Source of the DNA: Aurantiochytrium sp. KH105 | Lineage: Eukaryota > Sar > Bigyra > Thraustochytrida > Thraustochytriidae | Length of the DNA: 64,000 nt | Assembly (NCBI GenBank): GCA_003116975.1 | Contig: BGKB01000044.1 | Span: 942,940-1,006,939, forward strand | Direction: 5' to 3' | Shown: piece after piece, positions 50,245 to 64,000 of the stretch | Layout: every line of letters starts with the position of its first letter | How positions within the stretch are numbered: position 1 is the stretch's first letter | The notes under the pieces: generated by a model | Databases searched by the model: none | What the model saw: the letters and a program-made list of their open reading frames with translations, nothing else | Told to the model about the DNA's origin: nothing | Translations under genes and position numbers: made by a program

Positions 50245-51852
50245 TTAGTACGCGCCAACAACGCGCATAAAGGGAGTTGCAGCGTCAAGCTTTTCAAGGG
50301 CCGTGCGCAACGCAGCATTGTCCAGCTGCTTGCTCTCGATCTCGCAAAAGAATGCATACTCGGACGAGGCGCCTGCAGGCTGCGGCATGCTCTCCAGACA
50401 GGAGAGATTGACCGCATCGAGAGCCCGAAGCGACTCAATAAGAGCTCCTGGCTTGTGTGCCACGCCAAAAAAGGCAACGACGTGGGACTTGCCCTCACCC
50501 AGGGTGGACTCGGTAGGACTAATGACATAGAAACGCTCCCACCTCGTTGAATCCTCCGGATCTACATAGTGAACGAGGTCACACACCTTGAGGTTCGAGG
50601 CAAGAAGCGCGCGCTGGGTCTCCTTGCAAAATCCGGTTGACGCGCGCTGGATCGGGACCAGACCAAAGCCGACCTGGTTGCGTGCCACAGCAAGAAAAGC
50701 CTCTTCGACCGTGCCGCAGCTGAGAAAGTTGCTGTCCTTAACATCCACAAAGCGCGTTTGCGCTGCCGCGGATGCCATCGAGTCACTGCCGTCGCTAACG
50801 ATGGCCACTGCCGGGCGATCGAGGCGCTGCAAAAGGTACGCGACCTGGACGTCCTTATTGAGTGGGATCAGGTAGTTGCGATAGAGACGAGCAATCACGT
50901 CCGGATTCACCTTATACGCGTTCGTCTGGTCACCCTCGGCGCCATCCGTACCGTAGCGGGACGCCTTTGTGCGCACACGCTCCACCACGGCATCCTCGAC
51001 GGTAATGTTGGTGAGAGCGTCCATGATGCCCTCCGAGTCGTTTTCGGCAATCATTTTGCTGAAGCGCTCGCGTTCCGCCTGGAACTTGGCCTCGGCCACA
51101 AATTTGCCGTAGTGAATGCGCTTTGAGAGCGCTTGCAAAACAGCAATATCGCACGAGCACGTCGAGCCGTATTCGCCGTCATCTTCACTGTCGTTGGAAG
51201 CACACAGTTCGTCGAGAATCTTGGACACGTACACGTTGCTCACCTCGCGATTGATGTTGATAAGGTTGGGCTTGAGAGGGCTCTTGCTCGAGTTTGCGCT
51301 CACGATGCTGTTCGGGAGAAGGCCCCCAAAAAAGGGGTTCTCGTCAGGGCTGTTGTAGCGGCCCAGCTTGGCGTGCAGCGTTTCGGTCTCTACAAGGAAA
51401 TGCTCCATAAAGGAGAGGTCCGGGTCCAGCATGGAGGCGCCCTGGGTGCTCACGCGGGCGCGCAGCACTTCGGACTCGCCCTTTTCATAGCACACCTTGT
51501 TACGAGCAAACTGCGAGCGCTCGATTAGCGCAAAGATAATGGTCTCCTCTTGCCGGATCAGGGCGCCGCGAATGTCGGCGAGCTGTGCATCCACACCCAG
51601 TCAGTCCACTGAAGGAAGCGATCGCCCGAACGTGGCGCCGGCGCGTCTACACGCACACACCTGCGCGCGTGCGTGCATGCGTGCGTGTCCGCAACCATAC
51701 TTTCTCCACATGCCGCAATGTCTCCAAGCAAGTCATCCCCCCTCCATCCTCCGCGCCTTCGTTCACCACCGTCCCGAGAGGCTGCGCAAAGACGTGAAGA
51801 ACGTCGCGCGCGCTTTCGGCTGTTCACGTACCTTGAGCGGAAGCGTCTCCAT
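50245..51852 (-). CDS. Yeast-type chorismate mutase fused to a reduced prephenate-dehydratase/ACT tail (two exons)
   Basis: Exons are 51832-51852 and 50245-51582, giving 452 aa. Residues 1-260 are an all-helical AroQ chorismate mutase of the yeast ARO7 type (chorismate to prephenate, Phe/Tyr branch). IRGALIRQEETIIFALIERS holds the first active-site Arg, and RIHYGKFVAEAKF holds the second Arg and the Lys. The residue equal to yeast Glu246 is Gln. Residues about 280-345 resemble the first lobe of prephenate dehydratase (VEEAFLAVARNQVGFGLVPI). The second lobe is missing. Residues about 370-450 form an ACT domain with GALIE and ESMP, the PDT-type Phe-binding positions. The first exon is only 7 codons (METLPLK). 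Without it the large exon has no ATG, and an in-frame stop lies just upstream of its acceptor. The mutase role is secure; dehydratase activity is doubtful. Confidence 0.9.
51583..51831 (-). other. Intron in the chorismate mutase gene
   Basis: 249 bases, donor GTACGT, acceptor CACAG, phase 0, with a GACTGACTG branch-point-like stretch about 20-30 bases before the acceptor. It joins codon 7 to the LADIR start of the mutase fold. Confidence 0.85.
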
Positions 51853-52127: not shown

Positions 52128-55100
52128 TCATCGCTTCGACTCCTGGTATGCATTTGCCGTGCTTGACGCGATTTCGATTTCCTCGTCTTCGATATCGAGC
52201 TTGCCAAAAAGATCCTCGTCGAGGTCGAAACCGTCGCCTTCCGTACTTCGCGATCTCACGACTGGTTCTTCTCCCTTTATCTCGACCGTGTCGTCCCGGA
52301 TAGTCACCGCACTCCGCGTAGCGTCGGAAAAAGTGTCACCCAAACCACTCTGCGGGGACGAATGCAACGCTGTACCGAGATCGCTGACGTCCCGCGAACC
52401 TTTGCTGGCCAAATGCTTTTGGCTGGGCGAGCCTAATGCACCTCGCACATCGTGACGGCTTGCGAGCGGCGTCGGCGTGGAAATGCCAAAATCCATAATC
52501 GCATCGACGTCTGCTTCCTCATCTATTTCCAGTGTACCAAGCAAGCTCGAACCTGTAGGAGTGGCCAGAAGCGTTCGTTTGCTGCTACGGCCAAGCGGAG
52601 TTGGTGTCGTGATACCAAAGTCGATGTCATTCATGATGGCGTCCACGTCTTCAGCGCCACAATCGGTGCCTGTGTCCAGAGAAATGGGCAAAGTGTCCCT
52701 CGTCGACGTCGCATGAATCGTCTCCTTGCTGTCACGACGGGCCGACATTGACAAGCTGACACCACAATCGAGTCCCTCCATGACGACATCCACGTCGCTT
52801 TGCTCTTCGTAATTGAGTGCGCTTCGCAAACTCCTTCCTGTGGGTGTTGTCATAAGATTTTTCTTACTTGCGCGAGCAAGCGGCGTGGGAGTTGTGATGC
52901 CAAAATCGATGGCATCCATAATAGCCTCCACTTCCTCTTCCTCCTTTCCCTCTACCTTGTTTGCATCATTGAGAACAACAGGCAGGCTAGATCTGGTTGC
53001 AGTCGTCAAAAGAGACTTCTTGCTCATGTAGTTAACCGGAGTTGACGTGCTGATCCCAAAGTCAAGACCATCCATTATAGCATCCACGTCTTTCTGCTCG
53101 TTAGCTTCGAGTGTAATAGACAAACTATTCGCTGTAGCCGCTGTCGGTGTGGACAGAAGATGCCTCTTGCTGGCGCGAGCGAGTGGTGTTGGTGTCGTGA
53201 CGTCAAAATCGATCCGGTCCATGATCGCATCCACATTTTCACTTTCATCAGACGCAGACTCTCTAGGCGAATATTCCCCTGTACCCGTCGAGCGAGAAGA
53301 CCTTTGACAAGTTCTTTGGCGAGCACTGACGCCTCTTTCGGAGTCAGCCTCGGTGGTCGTAGCGTTTTCGTTTTCAGTTTCAATCGCCAGAGACAAACTA
53401 TACGATCGTGTTTGCGCGCCCTGACCACGATCACCGACGGAAGCTGCTGCGTGTTCGTGAGCACTTTCTCTTGCGGAAAATATCTCGTTGTCTTCCTCGA
53501 TCCGCCGCTCAAGAGTAGAAACCTTCAGCACCGCTCGGTCGCTCAATTGCGCGCCTTGTACAGGTGAATGGACATTAGCGTCTTTTGTTCTGTTTGCCTC
53601 CTGGATAACCCTTTCAAGGCCTGGTCCAAGAGCTCTGTTTCCGGCGGAGCTATTCATGTCATGTGACTGTGTAAGACCCGTGGCAAAGGTTGAGAATTCC
53701 ATCCCACTCGTAGCTACAGTGGACATCGTTTTCGAGCTCTTGCCAAGGTCGAGCTCATCCATGATCGCATCTACTTGAGCAAGAGCAGCAGGCAGACTTG
53801 CTTGAGTCAATGTTGCAGACAAGTTCCTTCTGCTGACCATCGAAGAAAAGTCTTGCAAAGGTCGCGTTTCTTCCGAGAACTTCTTCGTCTCCGTGTAATT
53901 TTCTATCCTTGGTGAGTCTATCGGCAGGACCTCAAGGTGCTTCTCATCTCGCGAGGACAACTCAGTATGCGCACGAGAAAGACTTTGGTTGTTTGCTGAT
54001 TCGACGTCGACCAAGCTCGGAATTGTAGAGGAAGCTAACCTACCTGATGTGGCTTGTCCTTCGATTACCTCTGGCCGCCCATCTTGCAATCCAGAGTCTT
54101 CGTGCGACAACTGACGTTCGGATCTGGACTTTTTCTCGGTCCGCCCATCTTGCAAATCAAAGTCGCCGTTCGACAAATGGCGTTCGGGTTCGGGTTCAGA
54201 TCTACGCTTTGTCTTTTCCTGCTGCACTTTTTGGTGAAGAAAATCCTCTTTTTCGCGGTCTTTGGCTCTCTGCACACGCTCGTTGAGAATATCGATATTG
54301 CGATTGAAAGATTTGTGCGAGCGCGTCAAAAACGACACACGAAAGTCCTGAGAGCGTCGAATCTTTTCTTTCCGGAGAGCATTAGGACTAAGCCGGCTGT
54401 CTTTTCGTGCACGGTCGCCCGCTGAGGTAATCGTACGCGCAATGGCTCGCTGCTTTGGGGTTGTGGGACGCGATCGAGGAGCAGATTTAGGCCTCAAGTT
54501 GACGGCTGGGTCGCCCGGTGATCCAGTGGCCCGTCTCGGAGCCGCAGATCGCGGGCGACAATGCGGCGAGACGTTAACCTCGATCACAAACTCTGGCTTC
54601 TTCGGGAGCGCGCGATTCGCACGTTTCGTTTGCAAATCGCGCAAAGCTTCCAATAATGTCGCATCATTTCCCCAACATTCTAAGCGACGAAGTCTTGCGC
54701 CATGGGCTGAAGCAGATTGCTCTGGCTGCTTCTTTTTGCTATGCTGATGCTTGGGGAACTTCAAGGCGTCAAGAGAGTATAGCAGCGCCATTGTTTCATC
54801 AAAAATGTCCTCGAGGTCGCAACTCTCGAATGCCTTCCTCGACTTGGCGTACGCTGTCGGATTAATACCTGGACTCAAGATTGGCACCTTCGAAAGGATA
54901 GTGGTGTCGGTCTTCTTGTTCTTGTTCTTGTTTAGTTGCGGCGTTGCTCTCCTTGTTGCTTGACCAGTTATTGCGACACCTTGTTGAGCGTCCACCTGCT
55001 CGCCCAACGGATTGGTGGCATCCTTTTTCTTCTTCTTCTTCTTCTTCACTTTGCACTTTACCCTTTTCGCATTCTGTAGCGAATTTGTCGGCCCTAGGCC

Positions 55101-55244
55101 CCGATTCGCAAGCATGAGCTCTGGCCGACATTTGTCCCCGTTCGCAGCAGGAGGTGAAGACCCCCCCGAGCCTTGGTATTCCTCGAGCCACGCTTTCGCC
55201 CGGAGTAAAGACATGGGATGTCCGACCGCAGGCGCTGGCGACAT
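52128..55244 (-). CDS. Uncharacterised protein with VDAIMD repeats
   Basis: The 1038-aa product matches no family I know. The N-terminal 110 residues include a helix (MSLLRAKAWLEEYQ) and a poly-Lys run. A stretch with DIFDETMALLYSLDALKF follows, then Arg/Ser/Pro-rich basic sequence (RPKSAPRSRPTTPKQRA) and a charged helix (about 300-340). The C-terminal half carries seven imperfect units of 45-52 residues, each opening VDAIMDxIDFG and continuing TPTPLARASKKxLL, T-P-T-G-x-S-L. The last 40 residues are acidic. No membrane segment or signal peptide is seen. The ATG at 55244 is the first Met, with a stop a few codons upstream of the open frame. Repeated Thr-Pro sites next to Lys/Arg suggest proline-directed kinase targets; this is inference only. 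Confidence 0.75.
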   Translation of the reverse strand: MSPAPAVGHPMSLLRAKAWLEEYQGSGGSSPPAANGDKCRPELMLANRGLGPTNSLQNAKRVKCKVKKKKKKKKDATNPLGEQVDAQQGVAITGQATRRATPQLNKNKNKKTDTTILSKVPILSPGINPTAYAKSRKAFESCDLEDIFDETMALLYSLDALKFPKHQHSKKKQPEQSASAHGARLRRLECWGNDATLLEALRDLQTKRANRALPKKPEFVIEVNVSPHCRPRSAAPRRATGSPGDPAVNLRPKSAPRSRPTTPKQRAIARTITSAGDRARKDSRLSPNALRKEKIRRSQDFRVSFLTRSHKSFNRNIDILNERVQRAKDREKEDFLHQKVQQEKTKRRSEPEPERHLSNGDFDLQDGRTEKKSRSERQLSHEDSGLQDGRPEVIEGQATSGRLASSTIPSLVDVESANNQSLSRAHTELSSRDEKHLEVLPIDSPRIENYTETKKFSEETRPLQDFSSMVSRRNLSATLTQASLPAALAQVDAIMDELDLGKSSKTMSTVATSGMEFSTFATGLTQSHDMNSSAGNRALGPGLERVIQEANRTKDANVHSPVQGAQLSDRAVLKVSTLERRIEEDNEIFSARESAHEHAAASVGDRGQGAQTRSYSLSLAIETENENATTTEADSERGVSARQRTCQRSSRSTGTGEYSPRESASDESENVDAIMDRIDFDVTTPTPLARASKRHLLSTPTAATANSLSITLEANEQKDVDAIMDGLDFGISTSTPVNYMSKKSLLTTATRSSLPVVLNDANKVEGKEEEEVEAIMDAIDFGITTPTPLARASKKNLMTTPTGRSLRSALNYEEQSDVDVVMEGLDCGVSLSMSARRDSKETIHATSTRDTLPISLDTGTDCGAEDVDAIMNDIDFGITTPTPLGRSSKRTLLATPTGSSLLGTLEIDEEADVDAIMDFGISTPTPLASRHDVRGALGSPSQKHLASKGSRDVSDLGTALHSSPQSGLGDTFSDATRSAVTIRDDTVEIKGEEPVVRSRSTEGDGFDLDEDLFGKLDIEDEEIEIASSTANAYQESKR
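52480..53790 (-). repeat. Coding VDAIMD repeat array
   Basis: Unit starts fall near 53778, 53235, 53090, 52935, 52795, 52650 and 52515. Six are spaced 135-155 bases apart; the most upstream one is separated and divergent. Shared features are Val-Asp-Ala-Ile-Met-Asp, Asp-Phe-Gly-Ile, Thr-Pro-Thr-Pro-Leu and Ser-Lys-(Lys/Arg). Unit 5 is the most degenerate. Confidence 0.85.
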
Positions 55245-55799
55245 GATGGCCCGTGGTCGCTCCCCTGGGCGTCTCGGAGCGCTTTGCCTTCGCTTCGCGC
55301 GCACGCATTACAGCTCCAAGGGAGACATGTCGCGCCTTTTGCAAGAAGGAAAGAAAGCGCGGACCAGCGTTCTCAGTTCTCAAAAAAGAATGTTTTTTTG
55401 CCAAACAGTGTGTACCATCATCCCCGAAAACCCAAAAGTCCTGATTACGCATGGCAAAGATTTCGAAGTGCAGAGGAAGACCTTATCGGATACGGGGCTA
55501 AGAGCTACACCCAAGGAGCATCTTCAAGCCAGGGAAAACTTTGGAAAACAAAATTATCGTCGAAACGAAAGAATAATTTACACAAAAATCAGTTTGGCAG
55601 TGTCAGTCAGTCTTGAGCGCAACGCGTGTTGCACTGCTGCAATGATAAAAAAAAAATAGAGTCTAGGCCTAGAAGATGATGAATCGGTCTTCGGCACCAC
55701 CAGTGTGGATGACTTTCTTTCCTAGTGCCCACAGAACACAATAGGATCCATAGAGCCTGGCAGAACAGAAAATGCAGAGAGTTGCTTTGCTCCTAACAT
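55245..55799. other. Intergenic region between the VDAIMD gene and the NRPS
   Basis: About 555 bases contain the upstream region of the VDAIMD gene and the NRPS 3' flank. It is relatively AT-rich in its right half, with an A-run at about 55649-55658. No gene was seen. Confidence 0.5.
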
Positions 55800-58700
55800 T
55801 CACTCAAATGTAAAGAAAGCATCAGCATCGCGAGCGGGAGGAGGAATAAATCCACAGCGTATCATGCAATCCATGCTGGTCTGGTTCAACGTCGCTTGTG
55901 GAGGGTAATTAACGTCTATGAGGGAGCTTACCTCAAACTTGAGCTTGCAGGGGGGCTCCATGTCTTCAACGTTTGGCTTGAAGACAACCAGCAGAGGATG
56001 CAATGCGTTCGCGGGCTCCTCGTGTTCCACTTTAGCCAATTGTCTTCGTGTCGGAGGCGCAGCAGAAGATGTCTTGGACGCAATCTCTGGACGCCGAGGA
56101 CTTGCGCCTTGTTGCGCCGACGTGTGCGAGCCTTGCTGCGAGGGAAGCATGGACATTGGCTTGGAAGATATCGATTCCGAGCGACTTCCCGAATGCAATG
56201 ATGGCTGCACAGACATTGGTTTCGATGGAACCGAGTCTTGACGACTTGCTGGCCGATACCGTTCCGGAAACCCAGCGCCATTCTGCGAGGACGATGGCAA
56301 CGCAGGCGCGCCAGAAGGAGACCTTGCCGCGCCCCCTGCCATCAGCGAGGCGGCAGTTGACGAGGACGAAGAGGAAGAGGAGGATGAGGAGGAAGTTGAG
56401 ATCGCGCGAGTGAAGGGATCACTGCCATCTCCGAAAGCACCCGAACCACCACCATCACGACTCGACGACCCTTGCCCGGATGACGATGCGGATGCGGTGT
56501 GATTGACCGCGCGATTGAGGCGGACAAGCCACTCCGCATAAGGGACGAGTTCACACGCATACCCTGTCGAGGCAACCCAATCAAAGTATTCGGGCAGAAA
56601 CCAGGGATCGGGATGGCACATGTTGAACGCGCGGCCGAGCACTCGGGCGGGCGCGACGGGCGAGGTCAGCAACTGCAGCATTGCGCGACAGACAAAGTCG
56701 ACGGGATTCATGTCCATTACCCAGTTCAGCCTTGGCGCGGCCTGAAGCTGAAGACATCCCTTGAGAAAGAGACACATAAAATCTCCAAAGCTCGCCATTC
56801 CCGTGACCGAGTGACCCGTGATGCGCCCCGGTCGAAAGATACACGCAGGTACGCCGCGCGAATGCGCTTCCCGCACCAAGTGCTCCGCGACCCACTTTGT
56901 CTGTGCGTAACCTGATTCAAGGTGGTGCAGGTCACTGCCGTCTGGAAGGGGGGCGTCTTCGCCAAACCAGCACGTTTCATCGCCATCATCGACGGTCTCT
57001 GCGGCACCTCGCTCGTCCATTCTGGCTTCGTGGGTCGGTGGAATGAAGACGGAAAGTGTGGACACATGCAGAAGCCAGACGCGCTTGTCCTTGCGTGCAC
57101 AAGCAAGACGAATGACCTCCTGCGTGCCATCAACATTGACTGCGCGGAGTCGCTTGTATGGATACCACGCGTGGACGTAGGCTCCCGCGTGAGCGATCAC
57201 GTCCAGCTCCTGCGCAAAGCGTACAAAGTCGCTCTCGGGCATGCCAAAGCGTGCTTGGCCCAAGTCGCCACGCACAACGAGAATATGATGCCGCGGCGAC
57301 ATTCCTCCTGAGCCATTCGAGTCAGTCCAGTCCAAATGAGAATCCTCAAAGCTCCCCATGCTTGGCATTGTCTCCTCGTTATAAAGATTGAACTGGAGAA
57401 GTGCCTCGCGCAGGCGTGCGATCGCGATCGCGTCGCTGTCAGCTCGAATGAGACAGAGAATCGTCAGTTCCGGTTTTGACTCTGCAAGAGTCTCAAGGAT
57501 TTGGTGGACAAAGAAGGCCCCCAAGAATCCTGTCGCTCCTGTGACGAAAATGCGCGACCATGTCTGGGCCATGTCCGGGTCGAAGACACTCGTTGCTGAG
57601 GGGACAACGTCTTCGTCGAGGGTACACTCGACCTCCGGGTCGAAGCCGAGTAAGGCGTCTGCGGTCTCTGGTGTGGGCGTCGCGCCGTCGCGAAGACCAT
57701 CCCCTGAAGATCCATTACGCGCAGCCACGGCTGCCGCCATGCCCTCGATAGATGGGTCGGCAAAAAACACCGATATTGGCAAGTCTACCTTGAGATTCTC
57801 TTGAACCATGGCAAGAAGCTGTGTTGCAGCAAGTGAGTGTCCTCCAAGGTCGAAAAAGTTGTCGTGGATGCTGATCGACTGCAGGCCTAGAGTCTCCTTC
57901 CAAAGCGCGGCGATCATGACCTCTTCTTTGGACCGCGGCGGAACAACCGCTTGAAGGGCTTGACCATGCACATCATGCTCGCTTTCCGTGGGCGCAGGCA
58001 GAGCGCGCCGGTCAATTTTCCCGTTGGCAGTGACAGGCAGTTTATTCATAAAAACCCAGGCAACTGGAACCATGTGGGCAGGCAACTTGTCCTTGACAAG
58101 GCTCTGCAGCGAGTGAATACGCTCTACCTCCCCGTAGGAGGAGCCCTCCTCGCCATCAGAAGACGAGGCGGCTACCACATAAGCACAAAGCCTTTGCTGA
58201 CCAGGGACGTCCTCGCGTGCGAGAACGCATGCTTCGAGAACTGCGTCGTGCTGCTTGAGCACCGACTCGATCTCTCCGAGCTCTACACGCATGCCGCGAA
58301 TCTTCACTTGAAAGTCGACCCGGCCGATGAACTCAATGTTGCCATCGCGCTGAAAACGCACCCGGTCCCCGGTACGGTACAGTTTCGAACCTTTGAGATA
58401 CGAGAGCGTTGGAGATTGCTCAATACTTTCCAAAAGTGTTGGTGGCATATCTACAAAGCGCTCGCGCGTCAAATCAGGACGGCCATAGTAACCTTGCGCG
58501 AGACCTGGCCCGGCAATGCAAAGTTCTCCAGCGACCAACGCAGGCACAGGCTCGAGAAAATCATCCAGAACAAAGGCAGCAAAGTTGTCGAGAGGTTTTC
58601 CAATTGAAGGCGAGAGCACAGCTTTGCTTCGACCGGCTGGTATCAAAGAAGAAGAGGAGGTAGACGACGACGAGGAGGAGGAAGACGTTGAATCAGCTCT

Positions 58701-61700
58701 TTTTCGAAGCAGCGAATTGGTGACAAAGTAGGTGCACATGACAGTGCCTTCCGATGGGCCATAGTGGTTGTCAAGACGGAATGGGACCCGCGCTAAGACC
58801 TCGCGAGGCACGTGGAGCTTATCGCCGCCGCCATAGACGACGCGAAGACTTGAAGGCCAGACAGGGTGATGCATAGCTGACGATGCCTTGGTTCGCAGGA
58901 ATACTTCGAGAAGTGGCGTGGGGAGTAGCGACACCGTGATGCGGTTATCGTGCAAAGCGGCGCGTAAATCGTTGAGGGATTTCTTCTCCTCGTCCTCCAC
59001 AAAGTGAACCGAGGCTCCAGCCGAAAGAAAGGGCCATATTTCCAGGCCTACAGGGTCAAAGGCTGAGCCCACGAGCTGCGAGGCGCGATCCCGGGCCGAT
59101 ATGCTGTACTCGCGAATGTGCCAGCTGACGAGATTGACCATGGAACGATGCTCCACGAGTACACCTTTCGGATTACCTGTGCTCCCCGAAGTGTAGATCA
59201 TGTACAATGTGCTGCGCGAGCCACGCCACTGCTGCGCATTAGAACCCCACGACAAGGATGCTGGAGGTGGAAGATTCGTCATGCTCCGCCCGCCGAACGC
59301 GCGCTCTACCTTGCCCGCAATGCGCTCCCACCGAATGTCAAGAGGTACCACAAGAGGCAACGAAGATGCAGTTCCAGCATCAAGCTTTTCCAAAAGCCCT
59401 AACGAAGACCGGTCACAGAGAAGCACACGCATGTGGGAGTCCTTGAAAACATAAGCGAGACGGTCCTGCGGCCAGGAAACATCCATGGGGACGTAGGCGC
59501 CCCCCGCCTTGGCAACTGCCATCATCGCCAAAATCATGTTGGGCGATCTCTCCAAAAAGAGGCCGACATTGCATGAGGGCTCAACGTGGCATTTGTATCG
59601 AAGGTATCGTGCCAGGACATTTGCCCGCGCATTGAGCTCGCCATACGTCCAAATCCTGCCGCGCCAACTCAGCGCGGTCGCCAGCGGGCTCTTCTCGGCG
59701 CATGTCTCGAAAAGGACGTGCACGCACGTGGACTCGTCAAACTTTTGGCCCGTGCGATTCCAGTCAGCAAGAATTACCTCTTTCTCGTGAGCCGTGAGGA
59801 GAGGTAGGCTGCAATACAGACGCGTCGGGTTCTCAGCACTGCCGCGCACAAGAGCTTGAAAGTGAGCTGCAAGATTGCGAATGCTTTCCTCGGCAAAGAG
59901 GGCCGTTTTATATTGGAGGCCCGCTCGAAGGGCATCTCCGTTCGAGTTGCCCTTTGTCACAATAAGCTGCAAATCGTAAGGCGAGGCCTCTTGCACAACG
60001 TCTTTGCGAAGCCGCATGCGCATTCGAGATCCGACGAGGACGCTTTCACCCGCCTCGAGACGGGCCAGCGATGGCAAATCCTTGTCCTCGCTCGAAAAAG
60101 ATTGATTCAGGGAAAGAAGGACCTGGAAGACCGGACTGCGCCCTGCGCTGCGATGGCTTCCCATCTTTTCCACCAATACCGCAAAAGGGAGCTCCTGATG
60201 CTCTAATGCGGCCAGCACGACGGTCCGCGCCTGACGCAAGAGACTGCGAAAGTGGTCCTCCTTGCTTACATGCATGCGAAGAACCACAATGTTGGTAATA
60301 TTGCCGACGGTCCGGTCCATTTCCGGCACCATACGACAAGCCATGGGCGTGCCAATCAGAATGTCTTCTTTGCCAGTATAGCGGTACAATAACCCAGCGT
60401 AAAAGGCCACGAGCGCCATGAATTCCGTCGCACGCTCTAAACGTATCGTCTCTTGCAGCTTTGCAAAAAAATCCGCCTCGAGATCGAAAAAATACCATGC
60501 GCCATCACGGGTCGCCTCCGTGCTGTCAGATGCGGACTGTGACGGCGACGGGACACTTTCGGCAGGATCCGACTCCGTTGGCAAGTCCAAGGAGGCCTCA
60601 TGTCCCGCCAGCTGTCGCTGCCAAAAACTCCACAGCCGCGTGCCGGTCGCCGAATTCATTTCCTCTTTTTGCATCTTGGCAAACTGGGCGACGGTAAGGG
60701 TTGACTCTGGTGGTATTTCATAGATCGTCGCCTCGAGAATGCCCCCGCTCTTTGTCACTGCATCGTACATTTCGCCAAGATCCTTGAGGACAACATCGAG
60801 AGACCAGCCATCCATGGCAATGTGATGCGCAGTCAGCAAGAGCACCGGATTCTTGTCGCTATCTGCATAAAGACGCGCGCGAAATGGAGTACCTCCCTGA
60901 AGGTCCCAAGGTGTGTGCAGGTCAGCCTGAAGCACCTTGTGAAGGTCCTCCTGCGATGTCGCGGGCGAAAGGTCTACCTTGAAGTCCACTTTGCTCGGGT
61001 TTGCAGCTTGCTCTGTTTTGGATTGCGCCAAAGTATTATTGGCGGTCAAAGTACTCTTCGCTTGGTGGATAGGGTAGATGATTTGATACGGCAGACCGTT
61101 CTCCTCGCCATACAAGGTCCGCAAAGATTGATGGCGATTGACGAGGCCTTGAAGAGCAAGTCGAAGATAATCGACATTGAGACCCTCGCTTGCGCTCGAA
61201 TCGCTCGTCTCTGCGAAACCTTCAATCGTGCAGCACAAATGGACGACATAGTCGACGCGCTTCGGGTCCATCTTGTGCATGAACCATAGCGACTGCTGGT
61301 TGTAAGAAAGTACACAGACTTCAGGTGTTTCGTCGCGGGCCTTGACTCGGGAGCCTGCTTCACTGGCCTGAGCAGCTTTTCGCAAACGATCTTGAAGGGC
61401 CTGTTGGCTTTGCATACTCCCTGACCACATTGATGCGTGTGCCATTGAAAGTGGGACAGCCGGAGCGTTGTCTCGAGAGGTTTGCAATTTAGCAGCCTCT
61501 GAATACCCACCGGATGTGAATTGCGAGAGCAAAGATTGATGCCCATGCGGGTCGGAAGTGGGTGTCTGCTGCTCTCGCACGCGACGTAGCACTGACGATG
61601 TTTGCGATCCAGAAGTAAGGCTATCGCTCGTCCCTCCCTCTTCCCGCTCCCGATGTGTCTCGCTGCGAAGAGGGGGCGCACGACGCTCCTGAAGCCACTC

Positions 61701-64000
61701 GCTAATACCACTGTCACGGTAGCTTGACGAAACGAACGAGCTAGGCATAAGTTTTGTTGTGCTTGAGGCGCCCATTAGCTGACCCGCGAGCGAGCCCTGA
61801 GGACGCGCCGAGGCCTGTTGCTTCTGTTGCAAGGAGATGAGCGAAGGGCGCGAATCTTGCTGGGTTTGCTTCATGGAAAAGACACCTGACGAGAAAGACT
61901 GCGAGTCCCCTTGCGACGCTTTCCCCAACGATCGTGTACCACCGGGTGCGCTCGACCCACCCGCCCCGCTCACGGATCCTGAGGATCTAGCCGATTTTCC
62001 CTTGGCAGACTCGACAAAGATAATGACGCTTCGAGGTGTAGGTGACTGCAGAAATTTGGACAGAGGCATGTCGACGCCAAAGTCAGCGCGAAGTCTGCTC
62101 ATCATGCGCGCCGCAGAGAGCGAGTGTCCACCTTCCTCGAAAAAATCCATCGTGTCCTCGAGGTCTTCCGGACGACGACCAAGACTCTCTGCAAAAATTT
62201 TGCGAACGCTCTGAGCAAGCTCTGAGCTCTGCTCACTAGGTCCGCGACGAGTTCGTGAGCCTGTGGTCGAGTTTGAGTCGAAGCGTCGTGGCCGTGAGCT
62301 CCGCGAGACTCCCTCGGCGTTCTTATCTCGACGAGCGGTCGCACCTGGCGCCGGAAGCGCGTGTTTATCGACCTTGTGATTTTGCGTAAGAGGAAACGAC
62401 TTCATGGAAATGAGCGCGCTTGGCACCATAAAGGCCGGGAGCGACGCGCTAAGAAATTTGCGCAGCGCAGACGAGGATACTTCTGCTCCTTCACGCGGCA
62501 CAACATAGCCAACGAGGAACTTGTCCCGGTCGCGCTCGCTGACAACTACAACAGCTTCTCGGACAGCGGGGTGTTGCAAGAGAACAGACTCGATGGCCAC
62601 GAGCTCGATGCGGTTGCCTCGAATCTTCACTTGCGTGTCTCGTCGACCAAGGAACTCGATATGGCCGTTTTCGCGCCAGCGTACAAGGTCTCCTGTGCGG
62701 TACATACGCGGATGGTCGCCCAGAAATGATGGACAGTCAATGGCGAGGTCGGCCGGGACCGGTAGAAAACGCTCCTTTGTGAGCTTGGGAAGGTTGAAAT
62801 ATCCCCGACCGACCTGCTCACCAGCAATAAATAACTCGCCATACACTCCTACTGGCAGCGGCGTAAGGTGTTCTTGATCAAGCACGAGGCAAACTACCCC
62901 AGAAGCAGGCTTTCCAATGCTTGGAGGCTCGCGCATCCCTGGCGGGACCGTCGTCATTGTGGCATTGATGGTCGTCTCTGTCGGTCCATAGATGTTGACA
63001 AGACGATACGGCGCATCCTTGCGGGCACCAAAGTGAAGCCGATCTCCACCTGTATAGAGGAGGCGAAGTGACCCAAGATTATCGCGAGGATTCTCCGTGT
63101 CTTCCTCCAGGACCATTTCGCAGAGCTGGGTTGTTAGAAAACCCATCGTCACCTTTTTCTCAGCAATCCAGTCCAAGAGTCGTGGTGCAACGACGCTAAT
63201 ATCGGAGTCGGTGACAGGTACCAGACAGGCGCCCACGGCAAGCGTGGGCCAAGTATCCGCCATGGCCGCGTCGAAGGCAAGACCAGCGCAGGCGAAGACG
63301 CGATCATCGGGCGTCATTTGGTAGTACTCGAGATGCCAGCGAATATAGTTCAAAAGGCCCGCATGTTCGAGGAGGACTCCTTTGGGCTTTCCTGTGGAAC
63401 CCGAGGTAAAAATAGCGTACGCGAGTTGCTTGCTTGTGTGATCCGAGGTGCTAACTTTGGCATCGCTCGCCAGAGAGATGACTTCGTCCCAGTCGCGATC
63501 GATGACGACTCTCCTTCCCGAAAAACTCGAAGGAATGCCGCCAAGGAGAGCCTCCTCGGTGATAACGAGAGACGAGTCGGCGTCCTCGAGCATGCCGCGC
63601 ACACGCTCGGCAGGGTACTTGGGATCAAGGGGCATGACAGCACCGCCAGCTTTGAGGATAGCTAGCCAGACCACGATGAGATGGGCACTGCGAGAGAGAA
63701 AGACAGGGACAAGGCTCTCTCGTCGGACACCTGCAAAGCGCAAAAAGTTAGCGAGGCGATTCGACCTTCGATTGAGCTCTTGATATGTCAGCGAAAGTGT
63801 CGGGGTCTCAATGCAAATTTTATCCGGTGTGCGTGCTGCCTGTGCTTCGACAAGAGCATGGACCGTTGCCGTCGCCCCCGCAGGTGGGCCACTGGTTCTC
63901 GCTGAGTTGAACTCGGTCAAAACCCGCGCGCGCTCTTCGTCAGCGAGCAAACGGATGTCAGAGATGTGAGTACGCTCTGGGTCTGCGGCGGCAACATGCG
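55800..64000 (-). CDS. Nonribosomal peptide synthetase, A-T-C-A-T-R (5' part beyond window)
   Basis: At least 2732 residues in one exon; the frame is open through the right edge and begins inside a typical inter-domain linker before A1. Numbering is from the first full codon. A1 has FTSGSTGKPKG near 197, IYGPTET near 336 and YRTGD near 434. T1 has EEGGHSLSA near 621. A Ser/Gln-rich linker of about 220 residues follows. C has HHIAMDG near 1058. A2 has YTSGSTGNPKG near 1602 and HYGPSEG. T2 has DLGGHSLAA near 2050. R, a short-chain-reductase-type thioester reductase, has VTGATGFLG near 2151 and YxxxK near 2364. A poly-Ser insertion lies in the R domain. R domains release the bound chain with NAD(P)H as an aldehyde or alcohol. 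Substrates are unknown. The active-site motifs look intact, so the enzyme is probably functional. Confidence 0.95.
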   Translation of the reverse strand, partial: HVAAADPERTHISDIRLLADEERARVLTEFNSARTSGPPAGATATVHALVEAQAARTPDKICIETPTLSLTYQELNRRSNRLANFLRFAGVRRESLVPVFLSRSAHLIVVWLAILKAGGAVMPLDPKYPAERVRGMLEDADSSLVITEEALLGGIPSSFSGRRVVIDRDWDEVISLASDAKVSTSDHTSKQLAYAIFTSGSTGKPKGVLLEHAGLLNYIRWHLEYYQMTPDDRVFACAGLAFDAAMADTWPTLAVGACLVPVTDSDISVVAPRLLDWIAEKKVTMGFLTTQLCEMVLEEDTENPRDNLGSLRLLYTGGDRLHFGARKDAPYRLVNIYGPTETTINATMTTVPPGMREPPSIGKPASGVVCLVLDQEHLTPLPVGVYGELFIAGEQVGRGYFNLPKLTKERFLPVPADLAIDCPSFLGDHPRMYRTGDLVRWRENGHIEFLGRRDTQVKIRGNRIELVAIESVLLQHPAVREAVVVVSERDRDKFLVGYVVPREGAEVSSSALRKFLSASLPAFMVPSALISMKSFPLTQNHKVDKHALPAPGATARRDKNAEGVSRSSRPRRFDSNSTTGSRTRRGPSEQSSELAQSVRKIFAESLGRRPEDLEDTMDFFEEGGHSLSAARMMSRLRADFGVDMPLSKFLQSPTPRSVIIFVESAKGKSARSSGSVSGAGGSSAPGGTRSLGKASQGDSQSFSSGVFSMKQTQQDSRPSLISLQQKQQASARPQGSLAGQLMGASSTTKLMPSSFVSSSYRDSGISEWLQERRAPPLRSETHREREEGGTSDSLTSGSQTSSVLRRVREQQTPTSDPHGHQSLLSQFTSGGYSEAAKLQTSRDNAPAVPLSMAHASMWSGSMQSQQALQDRLRKAAQASEAGSRVKARDETPEVCVLSYNQQSLWFMHKMDPKRVDYVVHLCCTIEGFAETSDSSASEGLNVDYLRLALQGLVNRHQSLRTLYGEENGLPYQIIYPIHQAKSTLTANNTLAQSKTEQAANPSKVDFKVDLSPATSQEDLHKVLQADLHTPWDLQGGTPFRARLYADSDKNPVLLLTAHHIAMDGWSLDVVLKDLGEMYDAVTKSGGILEATIYEIPPESTLTVAQFAKMQKEEMNSATGTRLWSFWQRQLAGHEASLDLPTESDPAESVPSPSQSASDSTEATRDGAWYFFDLEADFFAKLQETIRLERATEFMALVAFYAGLLYRYTGKEDILIGTPMACRMVPEMDRTVGNITNIVVLRMHVSKEDHFRSLLRQARTVVLAALEHQELPFAVLVEKMGSHRSAGRSPVFQVLLSLNQSFSSEDKDLPSLARLEAGESVLVGSRMRMRLRKDVVQEASPYDLQLIVTKGNSNGDALRAGLQYKTALFAEESIRNLAAHFQALVRGSAENPTRLYCSLPLLTAHEKEVILADWNRTGQKFDESTCVHVLFETCAEKSPLATALSWRGRIWTYGELNARANVLARYLRYKCHVEPSCNVGLFLERSPNMILAMMAVAKAGGAYVPMDVSWPQDRLAYVFKDSHMRVLLCDRSSLGLLEKLDAGTASSLPLVVPLDIRWERIAGKVERAFGGRSMTNLPPPASLSWGSNAQQWRGSRSTLYMIYTSGSTGNPKGVLVEHRSMVNLVSWHIREYSISARDRASQLVGSAFDPVGLEIWPFLSAGASVHFVEDEEKKSLNDLRAALHDNRITVSLLPTPLLEVFLRTKASSAMHHPVWPSSLRVVYGGGDKLHVPREVLARVPFRLDNHYGPSEGTVMCTYFVTNSLLRKRADSTSSSSSSSSTSSSSLIPAGRSKAVLSPSIGKPLDNFAAFVLDDFLEPVPALVAGELCIAGPGLAQGYYGRPDLTRERFVDMPPTLLESIEQSPTLSYLKGSKLYRTGDRVRFQRDGNIEFIGRVDFQVKIRGMRVELGEIESVLKQHDAVLEACVLAREDVPGQQRLCAYVVAASSSDGEEGSSYGEVERIHSLQSLVKDKLPAHMVPVAWVFMNKLPVTANGKIDRRALPAPTESEHDVHGQALQAVVPPRSKEEVMIAALWKETLGLQSISIHDNFFDLGGHSLAATQLLAMVQENLKVDLPISVFFADPSIEGMAAAVAARNGSSGDGLRDGATPTPETADALLGFDPEVECTLDEDVVPSATSVFDPDMAQTWSRIFVTGATGFLGAFFVHQILETLAESKPELTILCLIRADSDAIAIARLREALLQFNLYNEETMPSMGSFEDSHLDWTDSNGSGGMSPRHHILVVRGDLGQARFGMPESDFVRFAQELDVIAHAGAYVHAWYPYKRLRAVNVDGTQEVIRLACARKDKRVWLLHVSTLSVFIPPTHEARMDERGAAETVDDGDETCWFGEDAPLPDGSDLHHLESGYAQTKWVAEHLVREAHSRGVPACIFRPGRITGHSVTGMASFGDFMCLFLKGCLQLQAAPRLNWVMDMNPVDFVCRAMLQLLTSPVAPARVLGRAFNMCHPDPWFLPEYFDWVASTGYACELVPYAEWLVRLNRAVNHTASASSSGQGSSSRDGGGSGAFGDGSDPFTRAISTSSSSSSSSSSSSTAASLMAGGAARSPSGAPALPSSSQNGAGFPERYRPASRQDSVPSKPMSVQPSLHSGSRSESISSKPMSMLPSQQGSHTSAQQGASPRRPEIASKTSSAAPPTRRQLAKVEHEEPANALHPLLVVFKPNVEDMEPPCKLKFEVSSLIDVNYPPQATLNQTSMDCMIRCGFIPPPARDADAFFTFE

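Follow-up and report, generated by a model that had tools for sequence, protein, structure and literature searches.

The locus of Aurantiochytrium sp. KH105 analyzed here raised the question of whether a thraustochytrid carries a resident, working NRPS that ends in a reductase, and what such an enzyme might make. The window, a stretch of 64,000 nucleotides belonging to a genome of 76.03 Mb in 367 contigs, contained an NRPS frame on the reverse strand that was uninterrupted and open to the right edge. The reading that we regard as likely is a resident and apparently intact three-module thraustochytrid NRPS, with a relic first condensation domain (C1), loading by A1-T1 and reductive release of a tripeptide.

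Extent and domain order of the NRPS gene

The whole frame comprised 4,476 codons (C44:998739-1012169 of the assembly, G000), with the first ATG at codon 28 (C44:1012088), giving a protein of 4,449 aa. The domain order in this one frame was C1(degenerate)-A1-T1-C2-A2-T2-C3-A3-T3-R. Since the window cuts the gene, the domains that an earlier sequence-only reading had called A1, T1, C, A2 and T2 correspond to A2, T2, C3, A3 and T3 of the whole protein. That reading had left the module count to the upstream sequence, which, once searched, brought the total to three modules, the first without a working C domain.

In the protein encoded within the window, Pfam detected two stretches of AMP-binding (whole-protein E 3.4e-148), two AMP-binding_C, two PP-binding, one Condensation (E 3.1e-67) and one NAD_binding_4 (E 4.1e-58), and the NCBIfam thioester reductase model TIGR01746 was matched with 248.7 bits against a cut-off of 213.35. 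The Pfam and NCBIfam matches are beyond chance. Together with the motifs, they confirmed the claim that the core motifs of an A-T-C-A-T-reductase series are complete in a single frame (Table 1).

Table 1. Features of the NRPS gene inside the window, in order of translation (positions of the window).
Feature	Positions	Strand	Basis
NRPS part in the window	55800..63998	-	Residues 1745-4476 of the whole frame plus stop
A2, pocket code DAAFYGIINK	62343..63869	-	Pfam AMP-binding 51-401 and AMP-binding_C of the window protein; code from alignment
T2 with GGHSL (first base 62132)	62022..62210	-	Pfam PP-binding 597-659
C3 with HHIAMDGWS (first base 60827)	59772..61316	-	Pfam Condensation 895-1409, profile 5-455/456
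A3, pocket code DPLLYGHVMK	57996..59753	-	Second AMP-binding stretch and alignment; limits set by hand
T3 with GGHSL (first base 57845)	57741..57938	-	Second PP-binding stretch; limits set by hand
R, Rossmann part: GATGFLG (57539), VST (57065), GYAQTK (56912)	56679..57545	-	Pfam NAD_binding_4 2152-2440, TIGR01746, alignment with MxaA 4u7w
Ser-rich low-complexity insert, about 150 codons, interrupting R	56046..56495	-	Sequence; alignment with cyanobacterial R
End of R (probable)	55803..56045	-	NALHPLL versus NALYPLL of Leptolyngbya, 6/7 identical, E 0.085, weak

Intact C-A-T modules, as in a modular NRPS, were present twice (C2-A2-T2 and C3-A3-T3), and HHxxxD was kept in both of these elongating modules (HHIVTDL in C2 and HHIAMDG in C3). 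The core A motifs were found in A1, A2 and A3; in A3, a Ser-rich insertion separates motif A5 from A7. GGxSL was present in T1, T2 and T3, the Pfam match of T1 being weak (26.6 bits versus a cut-off of 20.8). As each gap between A-T units holds one condensation-family domain, no epimerase was seen; L/D typing of the C domains by gene context gave one epimerase-like neighbour only.

The Pfam match of C1, the first domain of the protein, spanned only 142-349 of the 456 profile positions, and R188-R189, placed by spacing and lying immediately before the start of that match, stood where C2 and C3 have HH. In the proposed model C1 would be a relic, and A1-T1 would consequently be the loading module. 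A C1 still active at the start of the chain, condensing an acyl group or the product of a partner, would lead to an N-acyl or longer peptide aldehyde or alcohol. Known systems do include N-acylated peptide aldehydes, and C1 is free of stops in both copies of the gene, but the short profile coverage and the arginine pair make an active domain unlikely.

The specificity of the three A domains was examined by matching the pocket positions to GrsA numbering by eye on motifs. The code of A1 was DAAFYGIVNK. A1 and A2 were 57% identical, and A3 was 34-37% identical to either of them. A tree of 250 A domains was built with FastTree and rooted at the midpoint; the bacterial loci were picked by likeness to the query and eukaryotes were left out. 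The input was drawn from 302 hits, those of at least 350 aa and at least 30 bits, of which 255 rows were aligned and 5 were dropped for gaps. A1 and A2 were sisters in this tree (support 1.0), and all three domains grouped with eight bacterial domains (support 0.957), whereas the node joining A1/A2 to these eight, with A3 outside, had a support of 0.468. Six of the eight had the code DAWFLG[NH]VVK, which we take to be a leucine pocket code, and the remaining two had DAWTGGLVLK and DVAYLIAVAK. None of the codes of A1, A2 and A3 equalled a code from the bacterial set, the best agreement being 6/10, 5/10 and 5/10 positions, respectively. Given their sister position and almost identical pockets, A1 and A2 most likely share one hydrophobic substrate; that this residue is leucine-like is a weak guess.

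The terminal reductase and other reductases of the genome

The C-terminal reductase domain carried an NAD(P)-binding motif (GATGFLG) and the Thr/Ser-Tyr-Lys set (in VST and GYAQTK), which is the catalytic triad in thioester reductases. Its best PDB match was the R structure of MxaA (4u7w), and the stretches VST and GYAQ.K were common to both.

An alpha-aminoadipate reductase of the Lys2 type with extra modules, or another reductase of primary metabolism, would be a very improbable identity for this protein and was rejected. The last module and R did match TIGR03443 (alpha-aminoadipate reductase) with 718.1 bits, but the cut-off of 1030.1 was not reached, and the model of MxcG, which acts in the myxochelin system and whose last module is C-A-T-R as in the present gene, scored higher. 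Among the NCBIfam models, that of MxcG ranked second for the window protein, with 819.4 bits against a cut-off of 2300, which was not reached either. Moreover, a make-up with three A domains and two canonical C domains is not that of Lys2.

Several other genes with reductase or polyketide-type domains were observed in the genome. An NRPS-like A-T-R-SDR protein was encoded at two places (L111:1364-5275, reverse strand, 1,304 codons; L114:1595-5743, forward strand, 1,383 codons; contigs C70 and C274 of G000). It matched TIGR01746 with 290.5 bits, followed by a short-chain dehydrogenase; its A model score of 314.1 was just below the cut-off of 317.4, and the A pocket lacked its usual Asp, with alignment gaps there and NVFFVWEM read by eye. 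This layout matches that of ATRR, an enzyme of nematodes and fungi that PMC11050029 links to glycine betaine; by analogy, the protein is a possible choline-forming reductase in a protist. An origin of R from this A-T-R protein (L111) was also considered and set aside, the identity being 31.6% versus 35.9% for the R of Leptolyngbya, a small gap.

Further NAD_binding_4 matches were located at G000:C35:439638-440495 (L110, 1,270 codons) and C9:306461-307318 (L113, 1,267 codons). Since L110 also matched PlsB-type acyltransferase models, below their cut-offs, it was read as a fatty acyl reductase-acyltransferase fusion. PS-DH (polyketide-type dehydratase) matches at G000:C56:296566-297003 and C27:304890-305327 sat in frames of 5,831 and 5,708 codons, and because of this size both frames probably encode giant polyketide synthases.

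Copies, neighbours and relatives of the gene

A second copy of the NRPS gene, with the same frame length and collinear surroundings, was found on contig C141 (37522-50952), where an amino-acid transporter precedes its 5' end. The collinear block of C44 and C141 measured 15.9 kb with 96.3% DNA identity. In the codon alignment, 4,397 of 4,475 residues were shared (98.3%), with two one-residue indels and no frameshift. Simple pairwise counting yielded dS 0.084, dN 0.0084 and dN/dS 0.10, a ratio between the copies that indicates purifying selection on the gene. Two haplotypes are the simplest reading of the copies, because the PPTase matches (6 places) and the FabA matches (4 places) also pair up across contigs; an older duplication is possible. 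An artefactual contig join, named beforehand as a finding that would overturn the sequence-only reading, is very unlikely given the full-length frame on two contigs. No N runs were present inside the gene, the sole run in 30 kb of C44 being 25 N at 1014412, outside it, and no N occurred in 30 kb of C141. Pfam Condensation matches were found in at least six places across the genome, three per NRPS copy and none elsewhere.

The neighbours recognized by Pfam in the window were DNA polymerase alpha, a metallophosphatase, an ion channel, TBC and CCT proteins, a Tesmin/TSO1-like CXC protein, myosin-ankyrin-FYVE and PH-ankyrin proteins and a chorismate mutase. Their description as ordinary housekeeping genes was slightly too strong, 5 of the 14 window frames given to Pfam having no match. 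The chorismate mutase frame (50248-51594, reverse strand, 41.3 bits) lay about 4 kb from the NRPS and had a prephenate-dehydratase part of 24.5 bits, just below the cut-off of 25.2; it probably serves phenylalanine synthesis, unrelated to the NRPS. Adjoining the NRPS, a frame of 1,059 codons (52131-55307, reverse strand) gave no Pfam match and contained VDAIMDxxDFGIxTPTPL-like repeated segments in its second half. Neither a tRNA nor, at the gathering score, an Rfam match was detected in the window.

The codon usage of the NRPS correlated at 0.71-0.85 with four window genes and at 0.69-0.81 with three genes from elsewhere in the genome. When 125 bacterial NRPS frames were compared with the host in the same way, the median was 0.41 and the maximum, 0.713, touched the host range. 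The genome also encodes a fused fatty acid synthase of 4,171 codons that carries two ACP stretches and, at its C terminus, a PPTase. Another protein combined a pair of FabA stretches with a FabD helical insert and, below the cut-off of 28, a weak match to NMO at 21.6 bits; it presumably resembles PUFA synthase subunit C. This gene content, together with a separate AASDHPPT/ACPS protein, suggests a thraustochytrid-like protist.

In the plasmid collection, the best-ranked match of A2 was 42.9% identical (2,739 records matched, all below 60%) and the best match of R 35.9% (108 records, all below 60%), the first five rows being cyanobacterial. Among GTDB contigs, the A-domain alignment query gave identities of up to 42% at 77 loci (best 80 of 578 relatives), while the query with the whole window protein gave 23 pattern stretches, none of them confirmed, from patterns poor in conserved motifs. 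The highest identity of a bacterial A domain to A1 in our alignment was 46.6%. No recent bacterial donor was seen in the plasmid collection or the GTDB contigs.

That the locus is a bacterial contaminant, a join artefact or a decaying gene is hardly credible, and the first two were rejected. NRPS genes are commonest in bacteria, and the bacterial frame at 0.713, which exceeds one host gene (0.691), slightly weakens the codon argument, but the two collinear full-length copies, the dN/dS without frameshifts, the eukaryotic neighbours and the best bacterial A identities (42-43% by tblastn) argue against these readings. The view of the gene as a resident eukaryotic one was upheld by its two collinear copies, its neighbours and a codon usage near that of the neighbouring genes.

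Proposed assembly line and its relation to known systems

In the assembly line proposed for this resident NRPS, A1 and A2 would load like hydrophobic amino acids, A3 would add a different residue, and C2 and C3 would form two peptide bonds. R, with NAD(P)H, would then reduce the T3 thioester to a linear tripeptide aldehyde of the layout X-X-Z, and a second reduction would give the alcohol. The domain anatomy is consistent with the earlier expectation of a short peptide or amino-acid conjugate whose release yields an aldehyde or alcohol. The T domains could be charged by a PPTase that is encoded on two contigs (331-332 codons) and matches AASDHPPT_N and ACPS. No tailoring, export or other biosynthetic cluster was apparent around the NRPS gene.

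In leupeptin-type protease inhibitors, a pair of like aliphatic residues precedes a different residue that ends the chain as the aldehyde. A more specific proposal, that this NRPS, long resident in the lineage, makes a tripeptide aldehyde of that layout with two like branched aliphatic residues, is speculative and we hold it to be doubtful; the synthetases of peptide-aldehyde protease inhibitors resemble the present NRPS in architecture only. Release of peptides as aldehydes by terminal reductases is described in PMC7586950.

Among characterized systems, linear gramicidin synthase LgrA supplied the top PDB chains for the window protein as well as for A1 and A3, a likeness restricted to the A domains, since LgrA has other substrates and no such host. 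The plasmid-encoded NRPS BAU16060.1 of Leptolyngbya sp. NIES-3755, the source of the best plasmid-collection R match, showed the order C-A-T-R by its matches to C3, A3, T3 and R; however, its identity to the present protein was about 20-37% across C, A and R, and its NRPS was split over at least two frames. Bacterial reductase-terminated NRPSs differ from the present gene, which has three modules in one eukaryotic frame, Ser-rich insertions and a degenerate first C domain.

With regard to protists, PMC7073580 refers to very few NRPSs described in algae, to several in Euglena, and to a two-domain NRPS with a reductive end in Bigelowiella natans, for which a cyclized product was suggested. The latter, compared by description only, shares with the present gene a protist host and reductive termination. 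In thraustochytrids, antiSMASH was applied in PMC6050695, which mentions NRPS clusters as sought or found. No paper on a thraustochytrid NRPS gene was noticed among the matches listed in the literature, as judged by titles and the beginnings of abstracts.

A reductase-terminated NRPS is of a known kind, protists included, and what is of interest here is the host, the self-contained gene and its apparent intactness. Such enzymes are familiar in bacteria and fungi but have rarely been described in protists. Since this is the sole Condensation gene found in the genome and is apparently intact, one knockout or expression experiment could reveal the product of a protist NRPS.
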